Shown piece by piece: positions 13,587 to 62,252 of a stretch of DNA of 64,000 nt. The stretch comes from Rhizobacter sp. SG703. Lineage in GTDB: Bacteria; Pseudomonadota; Gammaproteobacteria; Burkholderiales; Burkholderiaceae_C. The DNA lies in assembly GCF_012275445.1 (NCBI RefSeq), contig NZ_JAAZQK010000009.1, forward strand, positions 1 to 64,000, in the 5' to 3' direction. The notes beneath the pieces were generated by a model. It saw nothing but the letters and a program-made list of their open reading frames with translations, was not told where the DNA came from and did not search any database. Position 1 is the first letter of the stretch; each line of letters starts with the position of its first letter. The translations under genes were made by a program, and so were the position numbers.

Positions 13587-15905
13587 ATGAGCGCCGACGC
13601 CCCCACCTACACCATCGCCGTGCGCGAGCTGTGCGAGTTCACCGCCAAGCAGGGCGACCTCGACCTGCGCTTCACGCCCGGCCCGTCGGCGCAGGAGGGC
13701 ATCGCCGGGCATGCGATGGTGGCGTCGCGCCGCGGCGGGCGCTACCAGTCAGAGGTCAGCCTGAGCGGCACGCACGGTGCGCTGCGGGTGCGCGGCCGTG
13801 CCGACGGCTACGACCCCGACAAAGGCCTGGTCGAAGAGATCAAGACGCACCGCGGCGACCTGGCGCGTCAACCGGCCAACCACCGCCACCTGCACTGGGC
13901 GCAGGCGAAGATCTACGGTGCCTTGCTGTGCCAGCGCTTCGAGCTGCAGAAGCTGCGCGTCGCGCTCGTCTATTACGACGTCGCCACGCAGCAGGAAACG
14001 GTGTTCAGCGAAGCCTGCAGCGCGGCCGAGCTGCAGCAGTTCTTCGAGCAGCAGTGCGAGCGCTTCCTGGCCTGGGCCGCGCAGCAGCTGGCGCACCGCG
14101 GCGCGCGCGATGCGGCGCTGCAGACCCTGCGCTTCCCGCATGCCGATTTCCGCCTCGGCCAGCGCCCGCTGGCCGAGGCGGTGTACCGCGCGGCCAGCAG
14201 CGGCCGCTGCCTGCTCGCGCAGGCGCCGACCGGCATCGGCAAGACCATCGGCACGGTGTTCCCGCTGCTGAAGGCCAGCCCGGCGCAGCGGCTGGACAAG
14301 CTGTTCTTCCTCGCTGCCAAGACGCCCGGCCGCGGCCTGGCGCTGGAGGCGCTGCGGCGCCTCACCGGCGCCGCCGACGCACCGCCGCTGCGGGTGGTGG
14401 AACTGGTCGCACGCGACAAGGCCTGCGAGCACCCCGACAAGGCCTGCCACGGCGATTCGTGCCCGCTGGCGCGCGGTTTCTACGACCGGCTGCCGGCGGC
14501 GCGCAGCGCGGCGCTCGACACGACAGGCCTGCTCGACCAATCCCGCGTGCGCGAGGTCGCACTGGCCCACCAGGTCTGCCCCTACTACCTGAGCCAGGAG
14601 CTGGTGCGCTGGGCCGACGTGGTGGTCGGCGACTACAACTACTGGTTCGACCTCGGCGCGATGCTGCACGGCCTGACGCTCGCGAACGAATGGCGGGTCG
14701 GCGTGCTGGTCGACGAGGCGCACAACCTGCTGGAGCGCGGCCGCAAGATGTATTCGGCCGAGCTGCAGCAGGCCGACGTGGCCGCGCTGCGCAGCAAGGC
14801 GCCGCCCGCGGTGAAGCCGGCGCTCGATCGCCTGTACCGCGCATGGAGCGCGCTCAACAAGGCGCAGGAGGCCGATTTCGCGGTGCACGAGAAACCGCCC
14901 GCGGCCTGGCGCGACGCGCTGCAGAACGCGATCGCGGCGCTGGGCGAGCACTTCGCCGACGGCCAGTCGCCGAACGACACGCCGCTGCTGCGCTTCTACT
15001 TCGACGCGCTGCACGTGATGCGCGTGCTGGAGCTGCTGGACGACCACTCGCAAGTCGACCTGGCGATCACCGAACGCCGCGCCACCCGCACCCGCTCGAC
15101 GCTGTGCGTGCGCAACCTGATCCCGGCGCCGCACTTGCGCGGGCGCTTCGCGGCGGCGCACACCACGACGCTGTTCTCGGCCACGCTGACGCCGCCCGGT
15201 TTCCATGAAGACACGCTGGGGCTGCCGGAGCGCACCGCGTGGATCGATGTCGAATCGCCATTCGAGGCGCGGCAGTTGTCGGTGCGCATCGCGCGCCACA
15301 TCTCGACGCGCTGGCAGCAGCGGGCGCAGTCGCTCGCGCCCATCGTCGCGCTGATCGCGCGGCAGTACGCGCAGGCGCCGGGCAACTACATGGCGTTCTT
15401 CAGCAGCTTCGACTACCTGCAGCAGGTGGCCGAGCTGCTGCACGCGACGCACCCCGGCGTGCCGCAGTGGTCGCAGTCGCGCGCGATGGACGAGGCGTCG
15501 CGCCAACAGTTCCTCGCGCGCTTCACCGAGCACGGGCAGGGCATCGGCTTCGCGGTGCTGGGCGGTGCGTTCGCCGAAGGCATCGACCTGCCGGGGCGCC
15601 GCCTGATCGGCGCCTTCGTCGCGACGCTCGGGCTGCCGCAGGTGAACCCGGTGAACGAATGCCTGCGAGAGCGGATGGAGCAGCGCTTCGGGGCCGGCTA
15701 CGACTACGCGTACCTGTACCCGGGGCTGCAGAAGGTCGTGCAGGCGGCCGGGCGGGTGATCCGGACCACCAGCGACGAAGGCGTGGTGATCCTGATCGAC
15801 GACCGTTTCGCCAGGCCGCAGGTGCGCGGCCTGCTGCCGGCGTGGTGGCACGTCGGCGTCGATGCGGCTGCCCCGCCGCAGCGCGACGAGGCCGAGGTCT
15901 GCTGA
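13587..15905 (+). CDS. PD-(D/E)XK nuclease fused to XPD/DinG-type Fe-S helicase
   Basis: A 772-residue DNA repair-type enzyme. Residues of about 1-170 have the order of a RecB/Cas4-type nuclease: Asp73 in GRADGYDP, Glu84-x-Lys86 in VEEIKT, and QAKIY (QxxxY) at 106-110. The helicase core begins at about residue 190, with Walker A APTGIGKT (213-220) and DEAH (376-379). Between these motifs Cys280, Cys287, Cys292 and Cys331 are placed as the iron-sulphur cysteines of XPD/DinG helicases. The later motifs FSATLTPP, GGAFAEGIDLPG and QAAGRVIRT are present. The expected activity is ATP-driven 5'-3' unwinding with nucleolytic cleavage, but the DNA substrate is unknown. All key residues look intact. 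Confidence 0.9.
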   Translation: MSADAPTYTIAVRELCEFTAKQGDLDLRFTPGPSAQEGIAGHAMVASRRGGRYQSEVSLSGTHGALRVRGRADGYDPDKGLVEEIKTHRGDLARQPANHRHLHWAQAKIYGALLCQRFELQKLRVALVYYDVATQQETVFSEACSAAELQQFFEQQCERFLAWAAQQLAHRGARDAALQTLRFPHADFRLGQRPLAEAVYRAASSGRCLLAQAPTGIGKTIGTVFPLLKASPAQRLDKLFFLAAKTPGRGLALEALRRLTGAADAPPLRVVELVARDKACEHPDKACHGDSCPLARGFYDRLPAARSAALDTTGLLDQSRVREVALAHQVCPYYLSQELVRWADVVVGDYNYWFDLGAMLHGLTLANEWRVGVLVDEAHNLLERGRKMYSAELQQADVAALRSKAPPAVKPALDRLYRAWSALNKAQEADFAVHEKPPAAWRDALQNAIAALGEHFADGQSPNDTPLLRFYFDALHVMRVLELLDDHSQVDLAITERRATRTRSTLCVRNLIPAPHLRGRFAAAHTTTLFSATLTPPGFHEDTLGLPERTAWIDVESPFEARQLSVRIARHISTRWQQRAQSLAPIVALIARQYAQAPGNYMAFFSSFDYLQQVAELLHATHPGVPQWSQSRAMDEASRQQFLARFTEHGQGIGFAVLGGAFAEGIDLPGRRLIGAFVATLGLPQVNPVNECLRERMEQRFGAGYDYAYLYPGLQKVVQAAGRVIRTTSDEGVVILIDDRFARPQVRGLLPAWWHVGVDAAAPPQRDEAEVC

Positions 15906-15912
15906 ACCGCTC

Positions 15913-16164
15913 TTACTGAACCGTTTCCTTCGCCGCGGCCTTGGCCTTCTTGCCGTGGCTCTTCGCCTTGGCCTTGTGCACCTTCGCCTTGGTCTTGTGC
16001 ACCGTGCTCGACGGCTCGTCGGTCACGGCGCCCTTGACGTTCTCGGTGCCTTGCTTGGCGGTCTCGGCGGTCGCCTTGGCGCCTTCCTTGACGGCGGTGC
16101 CGGCCTGCGCGAACGCGGTGCCGGCAGCGAACAGCATCGCGAGGATGGATATGAGTTTCTTCAT
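15913..16164 (-). CDS. Small lysine/alanine-rich exported protein
   Basis: An 83-residue protein. MKKLISILAMLFAAGTAFAQA is a typical signal peptide with an AFA-QA cleavage site. The mature chain is low-complexity: TAVKEGAKATAETAKQGTENVKGA resembles LEA-like amphipathic repeats, and the C-terminal half (KTKAKVHKAKAKSHGKKAKAAAKE) is strongly basic, like histone-H1-type tails. A GGAGG lies seven bases before ATG 16164. The function is unknown; a periplasmic nucleic-acid- or polyanion-binding or stress-protective role is possible. It converges with the helicase gene, 7 bp apart. Confidence 0.7.
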   Translation of the reverse strand: MKKLISILAMLFAAGTAFAQAGTAVKEGAKATAETAKQGTENVKGAVTDEPSSTVHKTKAKVHKAKAKSHGKKAKAAAKETVQ

Positions 16165-16281
16165 CGGTGGCCTCCAGAGGTGGATGCGTATCATCGGCGC
16201 CCGCCGGCGACGGCCCTGTCGGACGCGTTCGCCTTGCGCTGTAGGACCACCGGCGTCCGGGATCACCCGGAACGCCAGGCC

Positions 16282-16328
16282 TGTAAGTTGCTTTACAGTC
16301 CGCGAAGTTTTCTGAAACCCAGTTTTCA
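16282..16328. promoter_or_regulatory. Paired palindromes upstream of rpiR
   Basis: Two 16-bp palindromes share the same layout: TGTAA-N6-TTACA at 16282-16297 and TGAAA-N6-TTTCA at 16313-16328. Their centres are 31 bp apart, about three helical turns, so both would face the same side of the DNA. The second overlaps the rpiR start codon. They are good candidate operators for autoregulation of the operon by its own RpiR protein. Confidence 0.5.
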
Positions 16329-17254
16329 TGACCGTGACGCCCCCCGCCGCCCGTTCCGATGCCCCTGCCTGGGCGGGCCGATTCGCCAGCCTGCCGGTGC
16401 TGCAGCAGGTCGCCGCCGGCCTGCCGGCGATGCCGGCCGCGATGCAACGCATGGGCCAGGCCGTGCTGGCGCACCCTTTCAGGGCGGCCACGCTCAACAT
16501 CGATGAATTCGCCGGCGAGGTCGCGGTGTCGATCGCGACCGCCAACCGCTTCGCCCGGGCGCTGAACTTCGCCGGCTACCCGCAATTCCGCGCCGAGCTG
16601 GCGCGCGGCTTCGAGGCCATCCTCGCGCCGGTCGAGAGCCTGCGCAGCAACCTGCGGCAGGCCACCGGCACGCAGCAGGCGATGGTGGCGTCGCTGCGCG
16701 AAACGCTGGCGAACCTCGAACACACGCTGCAGGCCTTGCAGCACCAGCCGTGCGAGCAGGCGGTGTCGCTGATCGCCGAGGCCGACCAGGTGCTGACGCT
16801 CGGCTGGGGCAGCAGCGCCTACCTGGCCGGCGTGCTGCAGCACGAGCTGGAGCCGCTGTGCTCGCGCGTCGGCAGCCTCGCGCAGGCCGGCGGGCCTTCG
16901 CATGCGGCGCGCCAGCTGGTCAAGCGCGGGCCGCGCGACCTGCTGATCGCGTTGGCCTTCCCGCGCTACGTCGAAGACACCATCGCGTTGACGCGGCTGG
17001 CGCGCGAGCGCGGCGTCAAGGTGCTCGCGCTGACCGACGAGCCGAGTTCGCCGCTGGTGCCGCTGGCCGACGTGACGCTGTATGCGCACGTCGACCGGCA
17101 GGTCGCGCCGACGTCCAATGCGACGGTGCTGGCATTGCTCGAAGCGCTGGTGGCCGCGCTCGCGCACCGCACCGAAGGCGCGGTGCAGCGCGCCGAGGAG
17201 ATGGCTCGCGGCGTGCTGCCGTGGCTGCAGGTCGACCCGGGGAGGGTGCGATGA
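16328..17254 (+). CDS. RpiR/MurR-family transcriptional regulator
   Basis: A 308-residue regulator. Residues of about 28-105 form the HTH_6 DNA-binding domain (LNIDEFAGEVAVSIATANRFARALNFAGYPQFRAEL). The C-terminal two thirds form a SIS domain (VLTLGWGSSAYLAGVLQHEL, LIALAFPRYVEDTIALTRLARERGVKVLALTDEPSSPL). SIS domains usually bind phosphosugars or amino-sugar derivatives; here the operon handles peptides, so the ligand may be a cell-wall peptide or sugar-peptide (inference). It is the first gene of the operon and overlaps iaaA by ATGA. Confidence 0.9.
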   Translation: MTVTPPAARSDAPAWAGRFASLPVLQQVAAGLPAMPAAMQRMGQAVLAHPFRAATLNIDEFAGEVAVSIATANRFARALNFAGYPQFRAELARGFEAILAPVESLRSNLRQATGTQQAMVASLRETLANLEHTLQALQHQPCEQAVSLIAEADQVLTLGWGSSAYLAGVLQHELEPLCSRVGSLAQAGGPSHAARQLVKRGPRDLLIALAFPRYVEDTIALTRLARERGVKVLALTDEPSSPLVPLADVTLYAHVDRQVAPTSNATVLALLEALVAALAHRTEGAVQRAEEMARGVLPWLQVDPGRVR

Positions 17255-18249
17255 GTTTCTCCGTGACATCGCCGGTGATCGCGATCCATGGCGGCGCCGG
17301 CACCTTGTCGCGCGCGTCGATCTCCACCGAGCAGCATGCGGCCTACCGCGCCGCGCTCGACGAGATCCTGCGCAGCGCCCAGGCGATGCTCGCCGGTGGT
17401 GCGCCGGCGATCGACGTCGTCACCGAAGCGGTGCGGCAGCTCGAGGAATGCCCGCTGTTCAACGCCGGCCGCGGCGCGGTCTACACCGCCGACGGCCGCC
17501 ACGAGCTCGACGCCTGCGTGATGCGCGGCAGCGACCTGGCCGCCGGCGCGGTGGCCGGCGTGCGCACGCTGCGCAACCCGATCCTCGCGGCGCGTGCGGT
17601 GATGGAGGCCGGCGGCCCGGTGCTGCTGATCGGCCCCGGGGCCGAGCAGTTCGCCGCCGAGCGCGGCTGCGAGACCGTCGCGCCCGAGTGGTTCGACACG
17701 CCGCACCGGCTGGCGCAGCTGCACGCGATGCAGGCCAGCGACCGCATCGCGCTGGACCACGACGTGCCAGGTCATGACGCACCCACCGTGCCCGCGCCGC
17801 TCGACGAACGCGACAAGTTCGGCACCGTCGGCGCTGTCGCGCTCGATGCGCACGGCCACCTGGCCGCGGCCACCTCGACCGGCGGCATGACCAACAAGCG
17901 CCCCGGCCGCGTCGGCGATTCGCCGCTGGTCGGCGCCGGCTGCTATGCCAACGACCGCACCGTCGCGGTGTCGTGCACCGGCGTCGGCGAGGCCTTCATG
18001 CGCGGGCTCGCGGCCTACGACGTGTCGGCGCTGGTCGAGTACGTCGGGCTGCCGCTGCGCTTTGCCGCACGCCGCGTCGTGATGGACAAGATGCCGCCGC
18101 TCGGCGGCCGCGGCGGGCTGATCGCCGTCGATGCGCGCGGCAACGTCGCGCTGCCGTTCAACACCGAAGGCATGTACCGCGGCTGGGCCCGGGTCGGCGA
18201 AGCGCCGGTGTCTGCCATCTATGCCGACGAAGCCGGCCCCGACCAATGA
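17251..18249 (+). CDS. iaaA: Isoaspartyl peptidase / L-asparaginase (Ntn hydrolase)
   Basis: A 332-residue proenzyme of the plant-type asparaginase family, which cleaves isoaspartyl dipeptides and L-asparagine. Autoproteolysis is expected between Gly191 and Thr192 in [12 protein letters not shown], making Thr192 the N-terminal nucleophile. The substrate-binding [23 protein letters not shown] and TGVGE-x-F segments follow. The N-terminal AIHGGAG and [14 protein letters not shown] motifs are complete. ATG 17251 overlaps the rpiR stop codon, and its own stop overlaps the gsiA start (both ATGA), so it is tightly coupled within the operon. The iaaA-gsiABCD order matches that known in E. coli. Confidence 0.95.
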
Positions 18250-44374: not shown

Positions 44375-45901
44375 CTACGGGTGGGCTGCCGCCGCGCGCT
44401 GCTTCGCCAGCGCCGCCAACGTCTCGCGCATCCGCTCGCCCACCGCGATCTGCGGGTTCGAGTAGCCGTCGGTCTTGCCGGCTTCCTTCTCGCGCTGCTC
44501 GATCACCTTTCGCGCGGCGGCATGCGCTTCCTCGAACGACCAGGTCGTGCGCATGCCTTCGTCGTACATCGCGCGGCCGAAGAAGGTCAGCGGCGAACGG
44601 CGGCCGCAGCCGTACGAGGTGTGGTCGGCATCGGCCGCGGTCATCACGAGCGTGTCGGGGTCGGACAGCGGCGCGATCCAGCTGCCCGAGTAGCAGGCCG
44701 ACACCGAGATCACGCGGTGGCGGATGCCGGCGGCGTCGAGCCAGCCCTTCAGCATCGCCGGCGTGACCGATTCGACCTCCAGCGGCCAGAACGACGACGC
44801 GAGCTGCCCGTCGCGCGCGCCGTGCGACGTGAGGTGCAGGAACAGCACGTCTTCGTCGCGGTCCATCAGCGCGGCCATGCGCGCGATGGCACGCTGCAGG
44901 TTGACCGGCGTGGCCCACGCGAACGAGGCCGGGTCGTCATGGTGGCTGACCAGCTGCAGCGCGCGGCCGGCGCCGTCGAAGCGGGTCGTCATCACGTCGG
45001 CCACCATCGCGCTCTCGCGGCGGAACACCTCTTCTTCGGCGTTCGGCGCGAAGGTCAGCGTGTAGACGTCGATCGTGCCCTTGCGCTGCGGCGCGAGCGC
45101 CTGCAGCCGGGTCCGCAGCAGCTGTGATTGCTGCTCGACGAGTTCCTGCGTCAGCTTGAAGCGCGGCGCGGCATCGTCGTCGCCCTCGGCCGTCTCGCCA
45201 CGTGCGGGGTACCAGTGCGCGCCGCGGTTCAGCCACTGGTTGGTCAGCAGCGTCGCCGCAACCAGCAGCAGTGCGCCCAGCCTCGGCACGAAGCGCGTTC
45301 CGGCGCGCCACAGCAGCGCGGCCTGCGCGAGGAACAACCAGCCCATCGCGATCCACCAGGTGCCCCAGGCCGCCCAGCCTCCTTCGCCACCGCTGCCGTA
45401 CAGCCCGTTGCGGGCCATCGGCACGAACAGCAGCGACAGCATCACCAGCGTCGGCAGGCCTTGCGCGCACAGCATCGCGAACAGCGCTGCCGCATCGGGC
45501 ACGCTCTTGTCGCCATCGCCGCGGCCGTGCCCCGGCGCGCGAACCAGCAGCCAGCAGGCCCAGATCAGCAGCACCAGTCCCATCCAGCGCGAGGTCAGCA
45601 GCGTTGGCCAGTAGAAGGTCGCGGCGCCGACGATGAAGAGCCGCTCGATCCCCACGCCGATGGCAAGCGGCACCAGGAACAGGCAGGCGGTGAGGGCCGG
45701 CGTGGCCTGCAGGCCGGTCCAGTCGGCGCGCATCAGCAGCGCGGTGCGAAAGCCTTGCAGCCACCAGGCGCCGAGCGCGCCGCGCGGCAGTTGCCGGGGC
45801 AGCGGGTCGGATGAGGGCGGCGTGGTGGCGGCCGTCGCCTCAGGGACGGCGGAAATCGGTTGAAGCGGGTCGATCGAGTCGTTCGGTCCGTTGTCGGTCA
45901 T
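44375..45901 (-). CDS. Membrane-anchored C13-family (caspase-fold) cysteine protease
   Basis: A 508-residue protein. Residues of about 70-222 contain five hydrophobic helices (near 70-90, 105-121, 141-160, 178-198 and 205-222). A soluble domain from about 275 to the end belongs to peptidase family C13 (legumain/GPI-transamidase-like). Strand DVLFLHLTSHGARDG gives catalytic His360 and VISVSACYSGSW gives catalytic Cys403, the usual clan CD order. ADADHTSYGCGRRSPLTFFGRAM follows, as in other bacterial C13 members. The target is unknown; Asn- or Asp-directed cleavage at the periplasmic or cytoplasmic face is inferred. It starts 39 bp after the LysR gene on the same strand. Confidence 0.87.
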   Translation of the reverse strand: MTDNGPNDSIDPLQPISAVPEATAATTPPSSDPLPRQLPRGALGAWWLQGFRTALLMRADWTGLQATPALTACLFLVPLAIGVGIERLFIVGAATFYWPTLLTSRWMGLVLLIWACWLLVRAPGHGRGDGDKSVPDAAALFAMLCAQGLPTLVMLSLLFVPMARNGLYGSGGEGGWAAWGTWWIAMGWLFLAQAALLWRAGTRFVPRLGALLLVAATLLTNQWLNRGAHWYPARGETAEGDDDAAPRFKLTQELVEQQSQLLRTRLQALAPQRKGTIDVYTLTFAPNAEEEVFRRESAMVADVMTTRFDGAGRALQLVSHHDDPASFAWATPVNLQRAIARMAALMDRDEDVLFLHLTSHGARDGQLASSFWPLEVESVTPAMLKGWLDAAGIRHRVISVSACYSGSWIAPLSDPDTLVMTAADADHTSYGCGRRSPLTFFGRAMYDEGMRTTWSFEEAHAAARKVIEQREKEAGKTDGYSNPQIAVGERMRETLAALAKQRAAAAHP

Positions 45902-49030: not shown

Positions 49031-50083
49031 TCAGCGAAGCGCGGCCGGCACGCCGGCGGCGCCCGCCAGGCGCGCCTGCGCCTCCCAGCGCCGGGCCGCG
49101 TCCAGCACCGCCGCGAAGGCCTCGCCATCTTCCAGCAGCGCCCGCTTGGTCGTCGCGTCCAGCGGGTTCTCGATGCCGGTCTCGTCGCGCGGCATGCGGT
49201 CTTCGCGCACCGCCTTCAGCAGCCGCTCGATCTCGCCGGCGGCATGCGCGGGCGTCTGCAGCAGCACCAGGCGCTTGCTCTTGTCCGGGTTGCTCGGCAC
49301 GTGGCACGAATCGCACTCGCCCTGGCGCAGGCGCAGCGCGAGCTGCTTGTATGCGCCTTCGAGCCGGCCCAGCCACGGGTTGTCGCGGCGGTACAGGCCG
49401 TCGAAGAGCGACGCCTTCGGCTGCGTCTGCCCCTGCGCATCGGTCCACATCCACTGCCCGCCGAAGCCCGCCGGTGCGGGCACCTGGCCGACCACGGCAA
49501 TCGGCGGCTGCGTGCCATGCACCGTGAACTGCGCGACCTTCACGCGCCCGCGCATCGGCTCCCACCACAGCAGCACCTCGGTCGCGCCCTGGTACATCGC
49601 CCACTTCTCGGCGTCGTGCCAGAACGGGTACGGGAACTGCCCCGGCGCGAGCCGGTTGCGGAAGGCGGTCGCGAAGCGCAGCTGGAACAGCCCTTCGGAC
49701 GCGACGTAGCGCACGCTGTGCTGCCCGTCGAACATGAACAGCGGCAGGTAGAGCCCGGTCAGTACGTCCGGCGCGAACTGCGTCAGCGAGCTCGCCTGCA
49801 GCGACAGCGCCGGGTCGCGCTGGCGGCCCCACAGCACGACGGCGTCCAGCGCATCGCGCACGGCCGCGTCGCCGAACAGCCCGCGCTTGCACTGCTCGAA
49901 GGCCGGCTGGTCGCCGGGGCCGGCCACCGGGCAGTGACGCGCCAGCGCGGCGGCGATGTCGGCGGCCGTGGCGCGCGCCTCGGCCCACTGCGGCGGGCTC
50001 GGCTCGCTGCCGGCCGCCCATGCCGGCAGGCCGGCGAACCACAACGCGAGCCAGGCCAGCCCGCGCGTCCAGGATGCAGCCAT
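49031..50083 (-). CDS. Periplasmic monohaem c-type protein
   Basis: A 350-residue exported protein. The signal peptide TRGLAWLALWFAGLPAWAAG is cut near residue 25. One haem c-binding motif, CDSCH (Cys257, Cys260, His261), lies in the C-terminal third, with a possible axial Met in REDRMPRDE. The large preceding region (WWEPMRGRVKVAQFTVHGTQPP, FPYPFWHDAEKWAMYQG) matches no domain I can name. Another Cys pair (Cys51, Cys65) could form a disulfide. GAGGGAGGA precedes ATG 50083. It follows two solute-binding-protein genes on the same strand by 18 bp, so a shared periplasmic redox or sensing role is likely. Confidence 0.7.
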   Translation of the reverse strand: MAASWTRGLAWLALWFAGLPAWAAGSEPSPPQWAEARATAADIAAALARHCPVAGPGDQPAFEQCKRGLFGDAAVRDALDAVVLWGRQRDPALSLQASSLTQFAPDVLTGLYLPLFMFDGQHSVRYVASEGLFQLRFATAFRNRLAPGQFPYPFWHDAEKWAMYQGATEVLLWWEPMRGRVKVAQFTVHGTQPPIAVVGQVPAPAGFGGQWMWTDAQGQTQPKASLFDGLYRRDNPWLGRLEGAYKQLALRLRQGECDSCHVPSNPDKSKRLVLLQTPAHAAGEIERLLKAVREDRMPRDETGIENPLDATTKRALLEDGEAFAAVLDAARRWEAQARLAGAAGVPAALR

Positions 50084-50101
50084 GAGGTCCTCCCTCGGTG
50101 T

Positions 50102-51220
50102 TCAGCCGACGATGCGGCCGTAGCGGTCGATCACCACCGTTTCCACGTACTGCGAGCCATGCGGGTTGTCGGGCGCATAGGCGACGCGGTAGCCGCCCAG
50201 GTCGGTGCGCAGCGTCGCCAGCGCGTCGCGCATCCGGCTGCGCGTCGCGCCGCCGCCCTTGACGGCGGTGCGCACCGCCTCGACCGCGACGCGGCCGGCG
50301 ATGTAGCCTTCCAGCGTCGTGACGCCGAGCGCGGCAGTACCGCCGAGTGCGGCCAGGTCGCCCTTGCATTGGCCGACCACGCCGACGCCCAGCGCCGATG
50401 GCCGCGGCACCACCAGGCTCATCACCACGCTGCGCCGCGTCGCGACCACGCCGTCGATCAGGTCCTGGCCGGCGAACGACGACGAGAAGTGCATGCCCGG
50501 GTAGGCGCCGGTGTGCATGTGCTCGATGATCGACAGCACCGGCGCGGCGTTGGTGGTGAACATCACGCAATCGAGACGCAGGTCGAGCAGCTGCTGCGCC
50601 ACCGGCAGCAGCGAGCCGGCGTTGCGGTCGATCGGCACCACCGCGACGGGTTGCACCCCGAGCCGGCTCAGCGCGTCCTCCATCGCCAGCAGGTTGGCCT
50701 TCGAGGTGTCCTTCAGGTGCACGTAGCCGACGCGCTTGAACCCGAACTCCTTCGCGTAGCCGACCATGCGCCGGTACTCCACGTCGTAGCCGGCGCGCAC
50801 GTGCACCGCGCCGGACGAGGCCGCGCTGCGGATGCCCATGTTGCCGCTGGCGGTGCCGATCAGCGCGATCTGGTTCTTCTCGACCAGCGGCATGCAGGCC
50901 TCTGCCGCCGCGCCGCTGGTCAGGCCGACCAGCGCCGCGGCGCCGTCGCCGATCAGCTGCTGCACGTTGGCGATGCAGCGGTCCTTGTTGCCGCCGTCGT
51001 CGTACACCTGCAGCTCGAAGCGCGGGCCCTTGGGGTCGGCCCGGTTGGCGGCAGCGAACGCGGCGAGGATGCCGTCGCGCACGTCGGCGCCATAGCGTGC
51101 CTGGGCGCCGGTCAGCGAGGCGCTCTGGCCCAGCGTGACGACGGTGTTGGAAGCGAATGCAAGGCGCGGGAAGCCCGCGCAGGCGACAGCGCCGCCCAGC
51201 AGAAGGTCGCGGCGTTTCAT
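50102..51220 (-). CDS. ABC-type solute-binding protein (Peripla_BP_6), copy 2
   Basis: A 372-residue periplasmic binding protein of the branched-chain amino acid (LivJ-like) class. The Tat/Sec-like signal MKRRDLLLGGAVACAGFPRLAFAS is cut near residue 24. TLGQSASLTGAQARYGADVRDGILAAFAAAN, QVYDDGGNKDRCIANVQQLIGDGAAALVGLTSGAAAEACMPLVEK and VHVRAGYDVEYRRMVGYAKEFG define the fold. Two cysteines in the CIANVQ and EACMP segments are conserved with its neighbour and may form a disulfide. No permease or ATPase gene is near. It lies 11 bp downstream of its paralogue. Confidence 0.88.
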   Translation of the reverse strand: MKRRDLLLGGAVACAGFPRLAFASNTVVTLGQSASLTGAQARYGADVRDGILAAFAAANRADPKGPRFELQVYDDGGNKDRCIANVQQLIGDGAAALVGLTSGAAAEACMPLVEKNQIALIGTASGNMGIRSAASSGAVHVRAGYDVEYRRMVGYAKEFGFKRVGYVHLKDTSKANLLAMEDALSRLGVQPVAVVPIDRNAGSLLPVAQQLLDLRLDCVMFTTNAAPVLSIIEHMHTGAYPGMHFSSSFAGQDLIDGVVATRRSVVMSLVVPRPSALGVGVVGQCKGDLAALGGTAALGVTTLEGYIAGRVAVEAVRTAVKGGGATRSRMRDALATLRTDLGGYRVAYAPDNPHGSQYVETVVIDRYGRIVG

Positions 51221-51231
51221 GCGCTGCCCGT

Positions 51232-52362
51232 TCAGCCGACGAGACGGCCGTAGCGGTCGATCGCGATCAGGTCGACATAGCGCGAGCCGTGCGGGGTGCC
51301 GGCGAACTCGACCTTGTAGCCGCCCAGGTCGCTGCGCAGCCCGGCCAGCGAATCCTTCATGCGCGCGCGGTTCAGCGTGCCGGCCTTCGCGGCGGCCAGC
51401 GCCGCCTCGACCGCGATGCGCCCGCTGATGTAGCCCTCGAGCGTCGTGATGCCCAGCCGGGCGCCGTTGTTCAGCAGCGCCAGGTCGCGCTGGCATTGGG
51501 CGACCACGTTGACGCCCATCTGCGTCGGGCGCGGCACCACCATGCTCATCACGCAGCTCTGCTTGCGCGAGGTCAGCGTGTCGATCAGGTCCTGCCCGGC
51601 GAACGACGACGCGTAGAACAGCCCGGCGTACTTGCCGCGCACCAGGTGGTCGATGATCTTGCCGACCGGCCCGGCGTTGGCGGTGAACAGCACGCAGTCG
51701 AGGCGCGCGGCCAGCAGCTCGTTGGCGATGCCGTCGAACGACGCGGCGTTGCGGTCGATGCCGATCGACACCTTGGGCTGGATCGACAGCGCCGACAGCG
51801 CGGCGTTCATCGCCTCCATGTTGGCCTTCGAGGTGTCGTTCAGGTAGACGACGCCGATGCGCTGCATGCCGAAGTCCTTCACGTAGCCGACCATGCGCTT
51901 GTATTCGGCGTCGTAGCCGGCACGCACGTGGAAGGCCCCGCTGACGTTGCTGCCGCGGATGCCCATGTTGCCGCTGGCGGTGCCGAGCATCGCGATCTGC
52001 GCGTCCTCGATCACCGGCACGCAGGCTTCGGCGCCGGCGCCGCTGGTCAGGCCGATCAGCGCGGTCGAGCCGTTCTCGACCAGCTGCATCACGTTCTTCA
52101 TGCAGCGGCTGCGCACGCCGCCGTCGTCGAGCGTCTGCAGGTCGAAGTGAAGGCCGCTGGCGGCTTCGTTGGCGTTCGCCGCGGCGAAGGCGGCGGCGAT
52201 GCCGTTCTGCACGTCGCGGCCGTAGCTGGCCTGGCCACCGGTCAGCGAGGCCGACTGGCCGAAGCTGATGGTGCGGGCGCCGGCGGCGCGCGACGGCGCC
52301 AGCGGCAGGAGGCTCACGCCGGCAGCCCCGGAGGCGGCCAGCAACAGGTTTCTGCGCTTCAT
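51232..52362 (-). CDS. ABC-type solute-binding protein (Peripla_BP_6), copy 1
   Basis: A 376-residue paralogue of the next gene, alignable from end to end by eye: MKRRNLLLAASGAAGVSLLPLAPSRAAG signal, SFGQSASLTGGQASYGRDVQNGIAAAFAAANAN, TLDDGGVRSRCMKNVMQLVENGSTALIGLTSGAGAEACVPVIED, AFHVRAGYDAEYKRMVGYVKDFG, and the same C-terminal LIAIDRYGRLVG. The pair therefore arose by tandem duplication. AGGGAG lies 9 bp before ATG 52362; an ATG at 52368 is also possible. It heads a three-gene unit with its copy and the monohaem protein. The ligand is unknown. Confidence 0.88.
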   Translation of the reverse strand: MKRRNLLLAASGAAGVSLLPLAPSRAAGARTISFGQSASLTGGQASYGRDVQNGIAAAFAAANANEAASGLHFDLQTLDDGGVRSRCMKNVMQLVENGSTALIGLTSGAGAEACVPVIEDAQIAMLGTASGNMGIRGSNVSGAFHVRAGYDAEYKRMVGYVKDFGMQRIGVVYLNDTSKANMEAMNAALSALSIQPKVSIGIDRNAASFDGIANELLAARLDCVLFTANAGPVGKIIDHLVRGKYAGLFYASSFAGQDLIDTLTSRKQSCVMSMVVPRPTQMGVNVVAQCQRDLALLNNGARLGITTLEGYISGRIAVEAALAAAKAGTLNRARMKDSLAGLRSDLGGYKVEFAGTPHGSRYVDLIAIDRYGRLVG

Positions 52363-52381
52363 CTTCATCTCTCCCTGAGAC

Positions 52382-61208: not shown

Positions 61209-62252
61209 ATGCGCGACCTGTCGTTGTCCTCTCCGCCGCTTCCCCTGTCGTCCCCGCTGCAGTTCCGTCGCGCCTTCGAACCGACCGACACGGCGCCGGC
61301 GCTCGACCGCCGCATCCACACCGCCGACGAGCCGCGCGACATCGCGTCGCCCGCGTTGCTGTACCCCGCGGGACCCGTCACCGAGACCTGGAGCGTGCCC
61401 GGCAGGCTGCACGAGCAGCGCCGCGGCATCGCGCGTTTCGCGAGCGACGGCCACTGGCTGATGGGCACGCTGTGCATCGACGACGCGACGCTGCCGGGCG
61501 GCATCGGCGCCGCGGCGCGGCAGGTCTACGACGCGCTGTTCCAGCTACTGCAAGACGAAGGCTTCCCGCACCTGCTGCGGCTGTGGAACTACGTGGCCGA
61601 CATCAACGGCGCCGATGCCGGCGGCGACCCGCTGGAGCGCTACCGGCAGTTCAACATCGGCCGCCAGGATGCCTTCCTGGCCGCACGGCGCAGCGCTTTC
61701 GACGGCGCGCCGGCCGCCTGCGCGCTGGGCACCACGCGCGGTCCGCTGACGGTGCACTTCCTCGCGGGGCGCGAGGCGCCGCGGGCAGTCGAGAACCCGC
61801 GCCAGGTCAGCGCCTACCGCTACCCGTCGCAGTACGGCCCGCGCGCGCCGACCTTCTCGCGCGGTGCGCTGGCATCGATCGGCGGCGGGCGCGAGGCGCT
61901 GTTCCTGTCGGGCACCGCCAGCATCGTCGGGCACCAGACGCTGCACCCGGGCGACGTGGCCCGGCAGACCGAGGAGACGCTCGCCAACGTGGCCGCGGTG
62001 GTCGATGCGGCCAATGCGCTGAGCACGATCGGGCCGCGCGCGCACCGCGTCGACACGCTCGAGTGCACCGTCTACGTCCGCCATGCGCAGGACCTGCCGA
62101 CGGTGCGCGAGGTGCTGGCGCGGCGGCTCGGTGCCGATGCGCCGGCGCTGCGCAACGCGATCTACCTGCGCGCCGACGTGTGCCGCGCCGACCTGCTGGT
62201 CGAGATCGAGGCGCATGGCATCGCGTCGGCTGCCACGCTGTCGCCCACATGA
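61209..62252 (+). CDS. Chorismatase-type enzyme (FkbO/Hyg5/XanB2 family)
   Basis: A 347-residue enzyme of the chorismate-hydrolysing family, which yields hydroxybenzoates or dihydrodihydroxybenzoate from chorismate. Characteristic segments are HLLRLWNYVADINGADAGGDPLERYRQFNIGRQDAF, VHFLAGREAPRAVENPRQVSAYRYPSQYGPRAPTFSRGAL, and FLSGTASIVGHQTLHPGDVARQTEETLANV; the last gives the RidA-like half of the fold. In Xanthomonas the relative XanB2 makes 3- and 4-hydroxybenzoate for xanthomonadin and ubiquinone. Here it overlaps an acyltransferase gene by ATGA and starts a three-gene set. Confidence 0.87.
   Translation: MRDLSLSSPPLPLSSPLQFRRAFEPTDTAPALDRRIHTADEPRDIASPALLYPAGPVTETWSVPGRLHEQRRGIARFASDGHWLMGTLCIDDATLPGGIGAAARQVYDALFQLLQDEGFPHLLRLWNYVADINGADAGGDPLERYRQFNIGRQDAFLAARRSAFDGAPAACALGTTRGPLTVHFLAGREAPRAVENPRQVSAYRYPSQYGPRAPTFSRGALASIGGGREALFLSGTASIVGHQTLHPGDVARQTEETLANVAAVVDAANALSTIGPRAHRVDTLECTVYVRHAQDLPTVREVLARRLGADAPALRNAIYLRADVCRADLLVEIEAHGIASAATLSPT

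Follow-up and report, generated by a model that had tools for sequence, protein, structure and literature searches.

Genes for two paralogous substrate-binding proteins (SBPs) and for a putative periplasmic c-type haem protein lie side by side in the genome of a Rhizobacter relative, and the linkage between SBP and haem genes is conserved and operon-like. That a single haem family should have duplicated SBPs from two different families as partners is the real surprise. Because some relatives carry the same haem family between an SBP pair of unrelated kind, we suggest that these genes specify an undescribed module coupling ligand binding to redox chemistry. Our preferred reading, to which we assign a probability of about 0.45, is a soluble periplasmic module composed of two paralogous SBPs and one monohaem c-type redox protein. 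SBP-B, and SBP-A as well, would capture a small periplasmic ligand; the loaded SBP would dock on the haem protein, and either ligand delivery to an NTF2-like pocket or docking alone would drive or gate electron transfer via the haem, electrons being exchanged with other periplasmic redox carriers. The covalent attachment of the haem, the docking between SBP and haem protein, the identity of the ligand, the flow and direction of the electrons, and the joint action of SBP-A with SBP-B are the parts of this scheme that we infer.

The locus and its binding proteins

The window, as we call the whole 64,000-nucleotide stretch analysed, carries the three genes on its minus strand in the order SBP-A, SBP-B, haem gene. 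SBP-A (51232..52368, 378 aa) has the Tat-like start MKMKRRNLLL and an alternative ATG at 52362; SBP-B (50102..51220, 372 aa) has the Tat-like start MKRRDLLL; and the haem gene (49031..50083) encodes a protein of 350 aa with an N-terminus that resembles, by eye, a signal peptide. The preliminary description of two duplicated binding proteins followed by a CDSCH protein is borne out: the SBPs share 58% identity across 379 columns, both match Peripla_BP_6 (78 and 93 bits, above the curated cut-off of 31.7) and the third protein contains a single CXXCH. A scan for consensus promoters found none, where 0.1 was expected, and the three terminator-like sites (1.3 expected) are all located on the strand opposite to the genes.

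At E <= 1, the SBPs matched only two NCBIfam models, that of the LivJ subfamily, whose best score of 22.5 bits is far under its cut-off of 477, and one of a hypothetical protein; the models of PQQ-associated SBPs that NCBIfam includes were not matched. Their closest solved structures are 3lop and 4kv7. Invariant motifs in 13 aligned SBPs, TSG and SGNMGIR among them, may line the ligand pocket. The preliminary description had also drawn attention to two cysteines conserved between the duplicates. In fact four pairs align, C89/C82, C116/C109, C225/C218 and C292/C285 (SBP-A/SBP-B, residue 1 being the M in MKMKRR and in MKRRD, respectively), present in 23, 18, 19 and 22 of 27 close SBPs. The weight given to them is unsupported, and a disulfide or cysteine-relay role was dropped because none is invariant. 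The underlying alignment comprised 36 SBP rows, the nine left out of the close set being seven distant copies from the window's own genome, G589 and G701; the tree took in four of these nine, namely G589, G701 and two own-genome copies.

The haem protein

The third protein belongs to a well-conserved family, and it has no family match in Pfam or NCBIfam. Its C-terminal helical haem domain (residues 231-343, 49055..49393, minus strand) contains the CDSCH attachment motif (residues 257-261, 49301..49315), to which haem would be covalently bound. All 19 members of the family retain CXXCH, H280 and M297, a pattern consistent with a redox haem; H280 and M297 (49193..49195, within an MPxD motif also found in 19 of 19) are both candidate distal ligands. 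When 17 members were compared with cytochrome family models at E <= 10, the matches were weak: Paired_CXXCH_1 in six (best E 0.01) and Cytochrome_CBB3 in two (best E 0.13). DUF3365 was absent from the 12 Pfam families listed for these 17 members at the same threshold. A haem-less model of residues 231-350 alone, built from a shallow alignment, reached a mean pLDDT of 72, and no cytochrome appeared among the Foldseek/VIA-align matches shown for it.

In the predicted model, the N-terminal domain (residues 30-190, 49514..49996, minus strand) looks NTF2-like. The match is weak: the best Foldseek E value was 0.029, with none under 0.001, and the best Z was 8.2 (rmsd 3.5, 104 aligned residues), close to the 7 to 8 usual for models that lack a clear match. 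By sequence, the haem protein had no solved homologue at E <= 10. A mobile or plasmid origin was rejected, as the protein matched none of 72,556 plasmid records and had no relative in viral contigs.

Conservation of the gene linkage

The 19 members of the haem family that were found all fall inside the order of the window's genome. Counting that genome, members turned up in 1 genome out of 369 drawn from the class, in 14 out of 399 from the family and in 4 out of 340 from the order, as well as in 6 of 149 relatives; all these draws are samples in which only some candidates per genome were scored, so that misses are possible. Scanning of genome contigs gave seven haem loci, and a haem-domain profile recovered the known gene in 16 of 19 genomes, along with two further matches that were weak (E 0.06 and 0.10).

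In 12 of the 19 loci the haem gene is immediately preceded, on its own strand, by the gene of an orphan-looking Peripla_BP_6 SBP, SBP-B being one of these 12 copies; the gaps between the two genes range from -4 to 139 bases (102 in G076). Among 399 genomes of the family, haem and SBP genes occur together in 10, the SBP alone in 5, the haem gene alone in 4 and neither in 380 (SBP threshold E <= 1e-50, both searches taken as one draw), corresponding to a Fisher p of about 1e-13 with kinship ignored. The four haem-only genomes are those that carry PhnD-like SBPs. The preliminary description held that it would fail if there were no conserved link with the haem protein; the link is conserved, with Peripla_BP_6 SBPs in 12 of 19 loci and paired PhnD-like SBPs in 4 of 19. 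Only six of the 12 loci have SBP-A in tandem with SBP-B, and SBP-A is also encoded without any haem gene in G001, G003 and G724; it would presumably act together with SBP-B.

The haem protein could instead be an independent periplasmic protein whose neighbours were inherited by chance. Such an account fits the three members that have no SBP neighbour (G146, G909 and G1042), and also the origin of the 16 SBP-linked members, as far as labelled, from one bacterial family, so that the loci do not count as independent; two changes are needed for the Peripla_BP_6 rows on the haem tree, and these rows may have had one origin. We nevertheless hold it to be highly improbable, since the SBP-haem pair is kept while most other neighbours change between genera, being common mainly within a genus or to few genomes, and since one clade has a different SBP pair at this position. 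Beside the module, the 17 loci compared showed no other gene that is shared widely.

Binding proteins of a second family

In 4 of the 19 loci, the haem gene lies between two paralogous PhnD-like SBP genes. Seven of the eight flanking genes were scanned and all seven match PF12974; the eighth shares 70-78% identity with the remaining downstream copies. The two proteins of one genome are 52-55% identical to each other. None shows similarity above chance to the Peripla_BP_6 SBPs (best E 0.24), and a PhnD-like SBP had no solved homologue at E <= 0.001. At E <= 1e-30, 3 of 309 genomes contained this PhnD subfamily, and all six places flank the haem gene. Among the loci of PhnD type, those of G633 and G825 adjoin purine-degradation genes or genes that, in our own reading, look glyoxylate-type. 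Purine catabolism was rejected as the function: by eye, the PhnD-type loci of G597 and G631 do not adjoin such genes.

We entertain, as a doubtful extension of the scheme, that the paralogous SBPs would serve a single haem effector as interchangeable subunits for ligand recognition and that an unrelated SBP family could replace the pair. The paralogues might divide between them the two redox forms of a single ligand (substrate and product). If true, this would be a periplasmic system of a kind not described before, in which the effector stays constant while the recognition pair is swapped.

Import, sensing or redox chemistry

Binding proteins devoid of an importer are common and mostly unexplained, and the proposed module gives them a concrete, testable partner. 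The earlier observation that no permease or ATPase is near holds: no LIV-type permease was seen, all 50 BPD_transp_2 matches of the genome being on other contigs, and the nearest listed ABC ATPase match, with 150 of 267 candidates scored, is a frame of two domains at a distance of about 30 kb (C9:18333-19712). Dedicated LivHMGF genes had been named as evidence that would speak against the preliminary description, and no dedicated importer was seen. The SBPs may feed a Liv-type importer encoded elsewhere, the haem protein modifying the ligand before uptake or serving as a redox helper; the BPD_transp_2 matches off this contig and the invariant, putatively pocket-lining SBP motifs agree with this. 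We consider it unlikely, given the LivJ score (22.5 against 477 bits) and the sharing of one haem family by two SBP families, which would call for two different importers.

At least 5 of 17 loci have a signalling gene no more than two genes away from the haem gene, part of the neighbours having been scanned. These signalling genes comprise a response regulator in RJY3 with a homologue in G659 of the same genus, a regulator-kinase fusion in G007, a hybrid kinase in G630 and, in G146, a chemoreceptor-like gene whose 34.5 bits fall barely short of the cut-off of 34.6. A second tandem Peripla_BP_6 pair in the window's genome adjoins a hybrid kinase. By analogy with AioX-AioS, loaded SBP and haem protein could form a sensory module through which a histidine kinase or chemoreceptor encoded elsewhere is informed of the ligand and of redox state or a gas. 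An orphan SBP as first component of a signalling system is known from AioX, and a c-type haem in a periplasmic sensor domain from sCache_heme (PMC5908839 and PMC12889525). We regard this possibility as somewhat unlikely, because the nearby signalling genes differ in type, the RJY3/G659 pair excepted, four of the five are on the strand opposite to the haem gene, and no signalling gene is among the families widely shared over the 17 loci.

Redox genes are also found near some members: a vanadium-haloperoxidase-like gene immediately 5' of the haem gene in G909, cytochrome c' and b561 genes in G631 and BP42, and a molybdopterin oxidoreductase gene in b91. They are not conserved, and signalling genes are about equally frequent. 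No quinoprotein (PQQ) dehydrogenase was detected among the scanned window neighbours, nor any conserved dehydrogenase beside the module in 17 loci, part of the relatives' neighbours having been scanned. The redox module is favoured by the SBP gene directly upstream in 12 of 19 loci, by the presence of the same haem family between a PhnD-like pair in four more, by these redox neighbours and by the precedent of XoxJ, MxaJ and PedG. It is weakened by the three members without an SBP neighbour, SBP-A without a haem gene or outside a tandem with SBP-B, the lack of a conserved dehydrogenase, the weak NTF2 match and the haem-less model of the haem domain, for which no cytochrome fold was among the matches shown. 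The preliminary view of a sensing or redox system rather than a transporter is partly supported, by the conserved link and by the finding of no dedicated importer; either sensing or redox chemistry may apply, and delivery to an importer encoded elsewhere is conceivable.

Comparison with known systems

As the preliminary description had stated, no described system has this makeup in the literature searched, judged by the titles listed. The SBPs are Peripla_BP_6 proteins like LivJ and LivK; unlike in LIV-type ABC importers, cognate permease genes are not nearby. AioX, a periplasmic SBP with a PhnD fold, serves signalling rather than import and is thought to report arsenite to AioS (PMC5908839). 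The SBPs of 4 of the 19 relatives are likewise PhnD-like, whereas no kinase or regulator gene is conserved here, unlike with AioX, ArxX and ArrX, and a haem protein is encoded instead. sCache_heme (DUF3365/Tll0287) combines a periplasmic c-type haem with a small ligand-binding-type domain (PMC12889525), as predicted here; the present protein differs in having no Pfam match to that family, an N-terminal domain that weakly resembles NTF2 rather than Cache, and no fused signalling domain.

XoxJ, MxaJ and PedG are SBP-like proteins encoded beside the monohaem cytochromes XoxG, MxaG and PedF; PedG is annotated as a PAAT amino-acid type, and no transporter that goes with it has been identified (PMC7391723, PMC12997753). 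Here too, the gene of an SBP-like periplasmic protein adjoins that of a putative monohaem c-type protein. The SBPs are of the Peripla_BP_6 or PhnD-like kind, unlike PedG, and the haem protein, unlike XoxG, MxaG and PedF, matches no cytochrome family above a cut-off and carries an extra domain that may be NTF2-like. No PQQ dehydrogenase occurs among the scanned window neighbours, in contrast to PQQ alcohol dehydrogenase clusters. As no dehydrogenase is conserved beside the module, the parallel with XoxJ is one without the central enzyme, and the SBP-cytochrome pairing of PQQ alcohol oxidation would extend to a setting without a conserved dehydrogenase.

The three-gene locus

Three successive genes on the minus strand of the window encode the tandem binding proteins SBP-A (51232-52368) and SBP-B (50102-51220) and then a haem protein (49031-50083), with intergenic gaps of 11 bases between SBP-A and SBP-B and 18 bases between SBP-B and the haem gene. 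Both binding proteins exceed the Pfam cut-off for Peripla_BP_6, share 58% identity and belong to a set of close SBPs that all carry a Tat-like RRxhh motif at the N-terminus (27/27). The genome is of the Rhizobacter type, a genus of the Burkholderiales: identities of the three gene products to their counterparts in Rhizobacter sp. Root1238 and OV335 are 91-98%. Elsewhere in the window, 44375-45901 encodes a bacterial protein with a C-terminal peptidase C13 domain and an N-terminal half that looks hydrophobic by eye, and 61209-62252 a chorismatase FkbO/Hyg5-like protein.

The haem protein family

The window haem protein begins with a signal-peptide-like stretch, as judged by eye, and carries one CDSCH; searches of Pfam and NCBIfam returned no match of note. 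Nineteen members of its family were collected: the window, Root1238, OV335, b91, BP42, Albitalea, RJY3, Ideonella livida and 11 others (G007, G076, G630, G659, G597, G631, G633, G825, G146, G909 and G1042). Root1238, OV335, b91, BP42, Albitalea and RJY3 each appeared twice, once under a contig name and once under a genome handle, whereas Ideonella livida appeared under its contig name alone; G002/L013, G008/L014, G532/L017, G540/L016, G576/L019 and G703/L015 were taken as identical contigs on the basis of matching lengths and places. C257, C260, H261, H280 and M297 are invariant in a 17-row alignment, where the block FRNRLxPGxFPYPFWH is largely invariant too, and CXXCH, the H280 context and an MPxD motif occur in 19/19 members, G1042 being represented by the longer of its two frame fragments. 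That gene (L073:8271-9363) is split over two overlapping frames, through either sequencing error or breakage. The conserved His and Met C-terminal to CXXCH are consistent with a six-coordinate redox haem.

The predicted model of the haem protein has a mean pLDDT of 68. For its N-domain, the best Foldseek E was 0.029, with no match under 0.001, and VIA-align reached a best Z of 8.2 (104 residues at 3.5 A), values of 7-8 being typical without a clear match. Many of the structural matches are titled NTF2-like, SnoaL-like, ketosteroid-isomerase, cystatin-fold or designed proteins, which is suggestive, but not proof, of an NTF2-like N-domain. Modelled separately, without haem and from a shallow alignment, the haem domain gave no cytochrome among the Foldseek or VIA-align matches listed.

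Linkage to two families of binding proteins

A Peripla_BP_6-type SBP of the subfamily found in the window lies directly upstream of the haem gene, on the same strand, in 12/19 members (gaps of -4 to 139 bases). In four others (G597, G631, G633 and G825) the haem gene is flanked on both sides by PhnD-like SBPs. All labelled members with either type of SBP come from a single bacterial family, so that the loci are not independent. PF12974 was matched by all seven of the eight flanking PhnD-like genes that were scanned. These proteins show no significant similarity to the window SBPs; the two types match different Pfam families and do not align with each other, and Peripla_BP_6 and PhnD-like proteins differ in binding-protein fold. 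PhnD-like SBPs are 61-78% identical between genomes at the same position and 51-55% identical across positions, and are thus likewise an old duplicate pair. A search with one of them (E <= 1e-30) found six places in 3/309 genomes, all flanking the haem gene. An adjacent SBP is absent in G146, G909 and G1042 (3/19). Absences are soft throughout, since the searches sampled genomes and scored only part of the candidates in each.

In a comparison of 17 loci, which took in at most six genes per side as called by an in-house script, just three families recurred in more than three loci: that of the haem gene, the Peripla_BP_6 SBPs (in 12) and the PhnD-like SBPs (in four). The remaining families were common to two or three loci, mostly within the trio of closest Rhizobacter strains, within the genus of RJY3 and G659, among BP42, Albitalea and G630, or between two PhnD-type genomes.

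In the window's own genome, Peripla_BP_6 is matched 34 times (30 above the cut-off) and BPD_transp_2 50 times, with none of the BPD_transp_2 matches on the window's contig. Among the matches listed for that contig (150 of 267 candidates scored), the closest ABC ATPase frame, with two ATPase matches, is about 30 kb away. That one haem family accompanies two SBP families, each duplicated, argues more for a loaded SBP as partner of the haem protein than for an importer common to the SBPs. Two more tandem Peripla_BP_6-type pairs lie on contig C4 of the same genome (L023:3622-5973 and 14988-17298), one adjoined by a hybrid histidine kinase gene, the other by a molybdopterin oxidoreductase gene.

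History of the module

A tree of 31 SBPs places SBP-A with its relatives in a group of 15 rows (99/97); the 12 haem-adjacent copies fall outside this group and are not resolved as a single clade. SBP-A is in tandem with SBP-B in 6/12 loci. Of the other six, all but Ideonella livida were covered for SBP-A: it lies three genes upstream on the opposite strand in G007 and at a separate genomic site in G076, G532 and G630, and was not seen in G540 (genome 76% complete). SBP-A is also present in G001, G003 and G724, where searches for the haem gene and haem domain found none. From this distribution, we take SBP-B and the haem protein as the core, which SBP-A often accompanies. The haem tree unites the PhnD-type rows in a single group (99/100). 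Two changes are needed to explain the Peripla_BP_6 rows, which may nonetheless have had a single origin, and the deep order is weakly supported.

A stand-alone SBP-A heads a similarly laid-out cluster in two genomes (L051:7512-13431 and L054:7263-12688), followed by two large proteins and a second Peripla_BP_6-like SBP. The large proteins of L051, whose genes were scanned, are FAD-NAD(P)-binding and MFS_4 respectively; the L054 genes were all assigned from size and order.

Function and comparison with known systems

A loaded SBP would partner the haem protein, and our best reading of the locus is a ligand-dependent periplasmic redox module. Redox genes lie nearby in at least 4/19 haem-family loci. 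The main rival is a sensing role, for which signalling genes occur no more than two genes away in at least 5/17 loci, mostly differing in kind between loci.

Several neighbours may be recorded individually. A vanadium-haloperoxidase-like gene directly precedes the haem gene in G909 (L072:9145-10335), and two loci, one per SBP type, have a cytochrome c' and cytochrome b561 pair close to the module (L058:6262-7381 and L016:4356-5527). The PhnD-type module of G633 adjoins a purine-degradation cluster (L059:1-7294) containing Urate_ox_N, XdhC, HIUase and OHCU decarboxylase.

Since no quinoprotein gene was seen among the neighbours scanned, we do not class the putative redox module with the SBP-cytochrome pairs that belong to PQQ alcohol oxidation. 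Those pairs, XoxJ/XoxG and PedG/PedF, nevertheless offer a working likeness to the proposed SBP-haem module (PMC7391723, PMC12997753).
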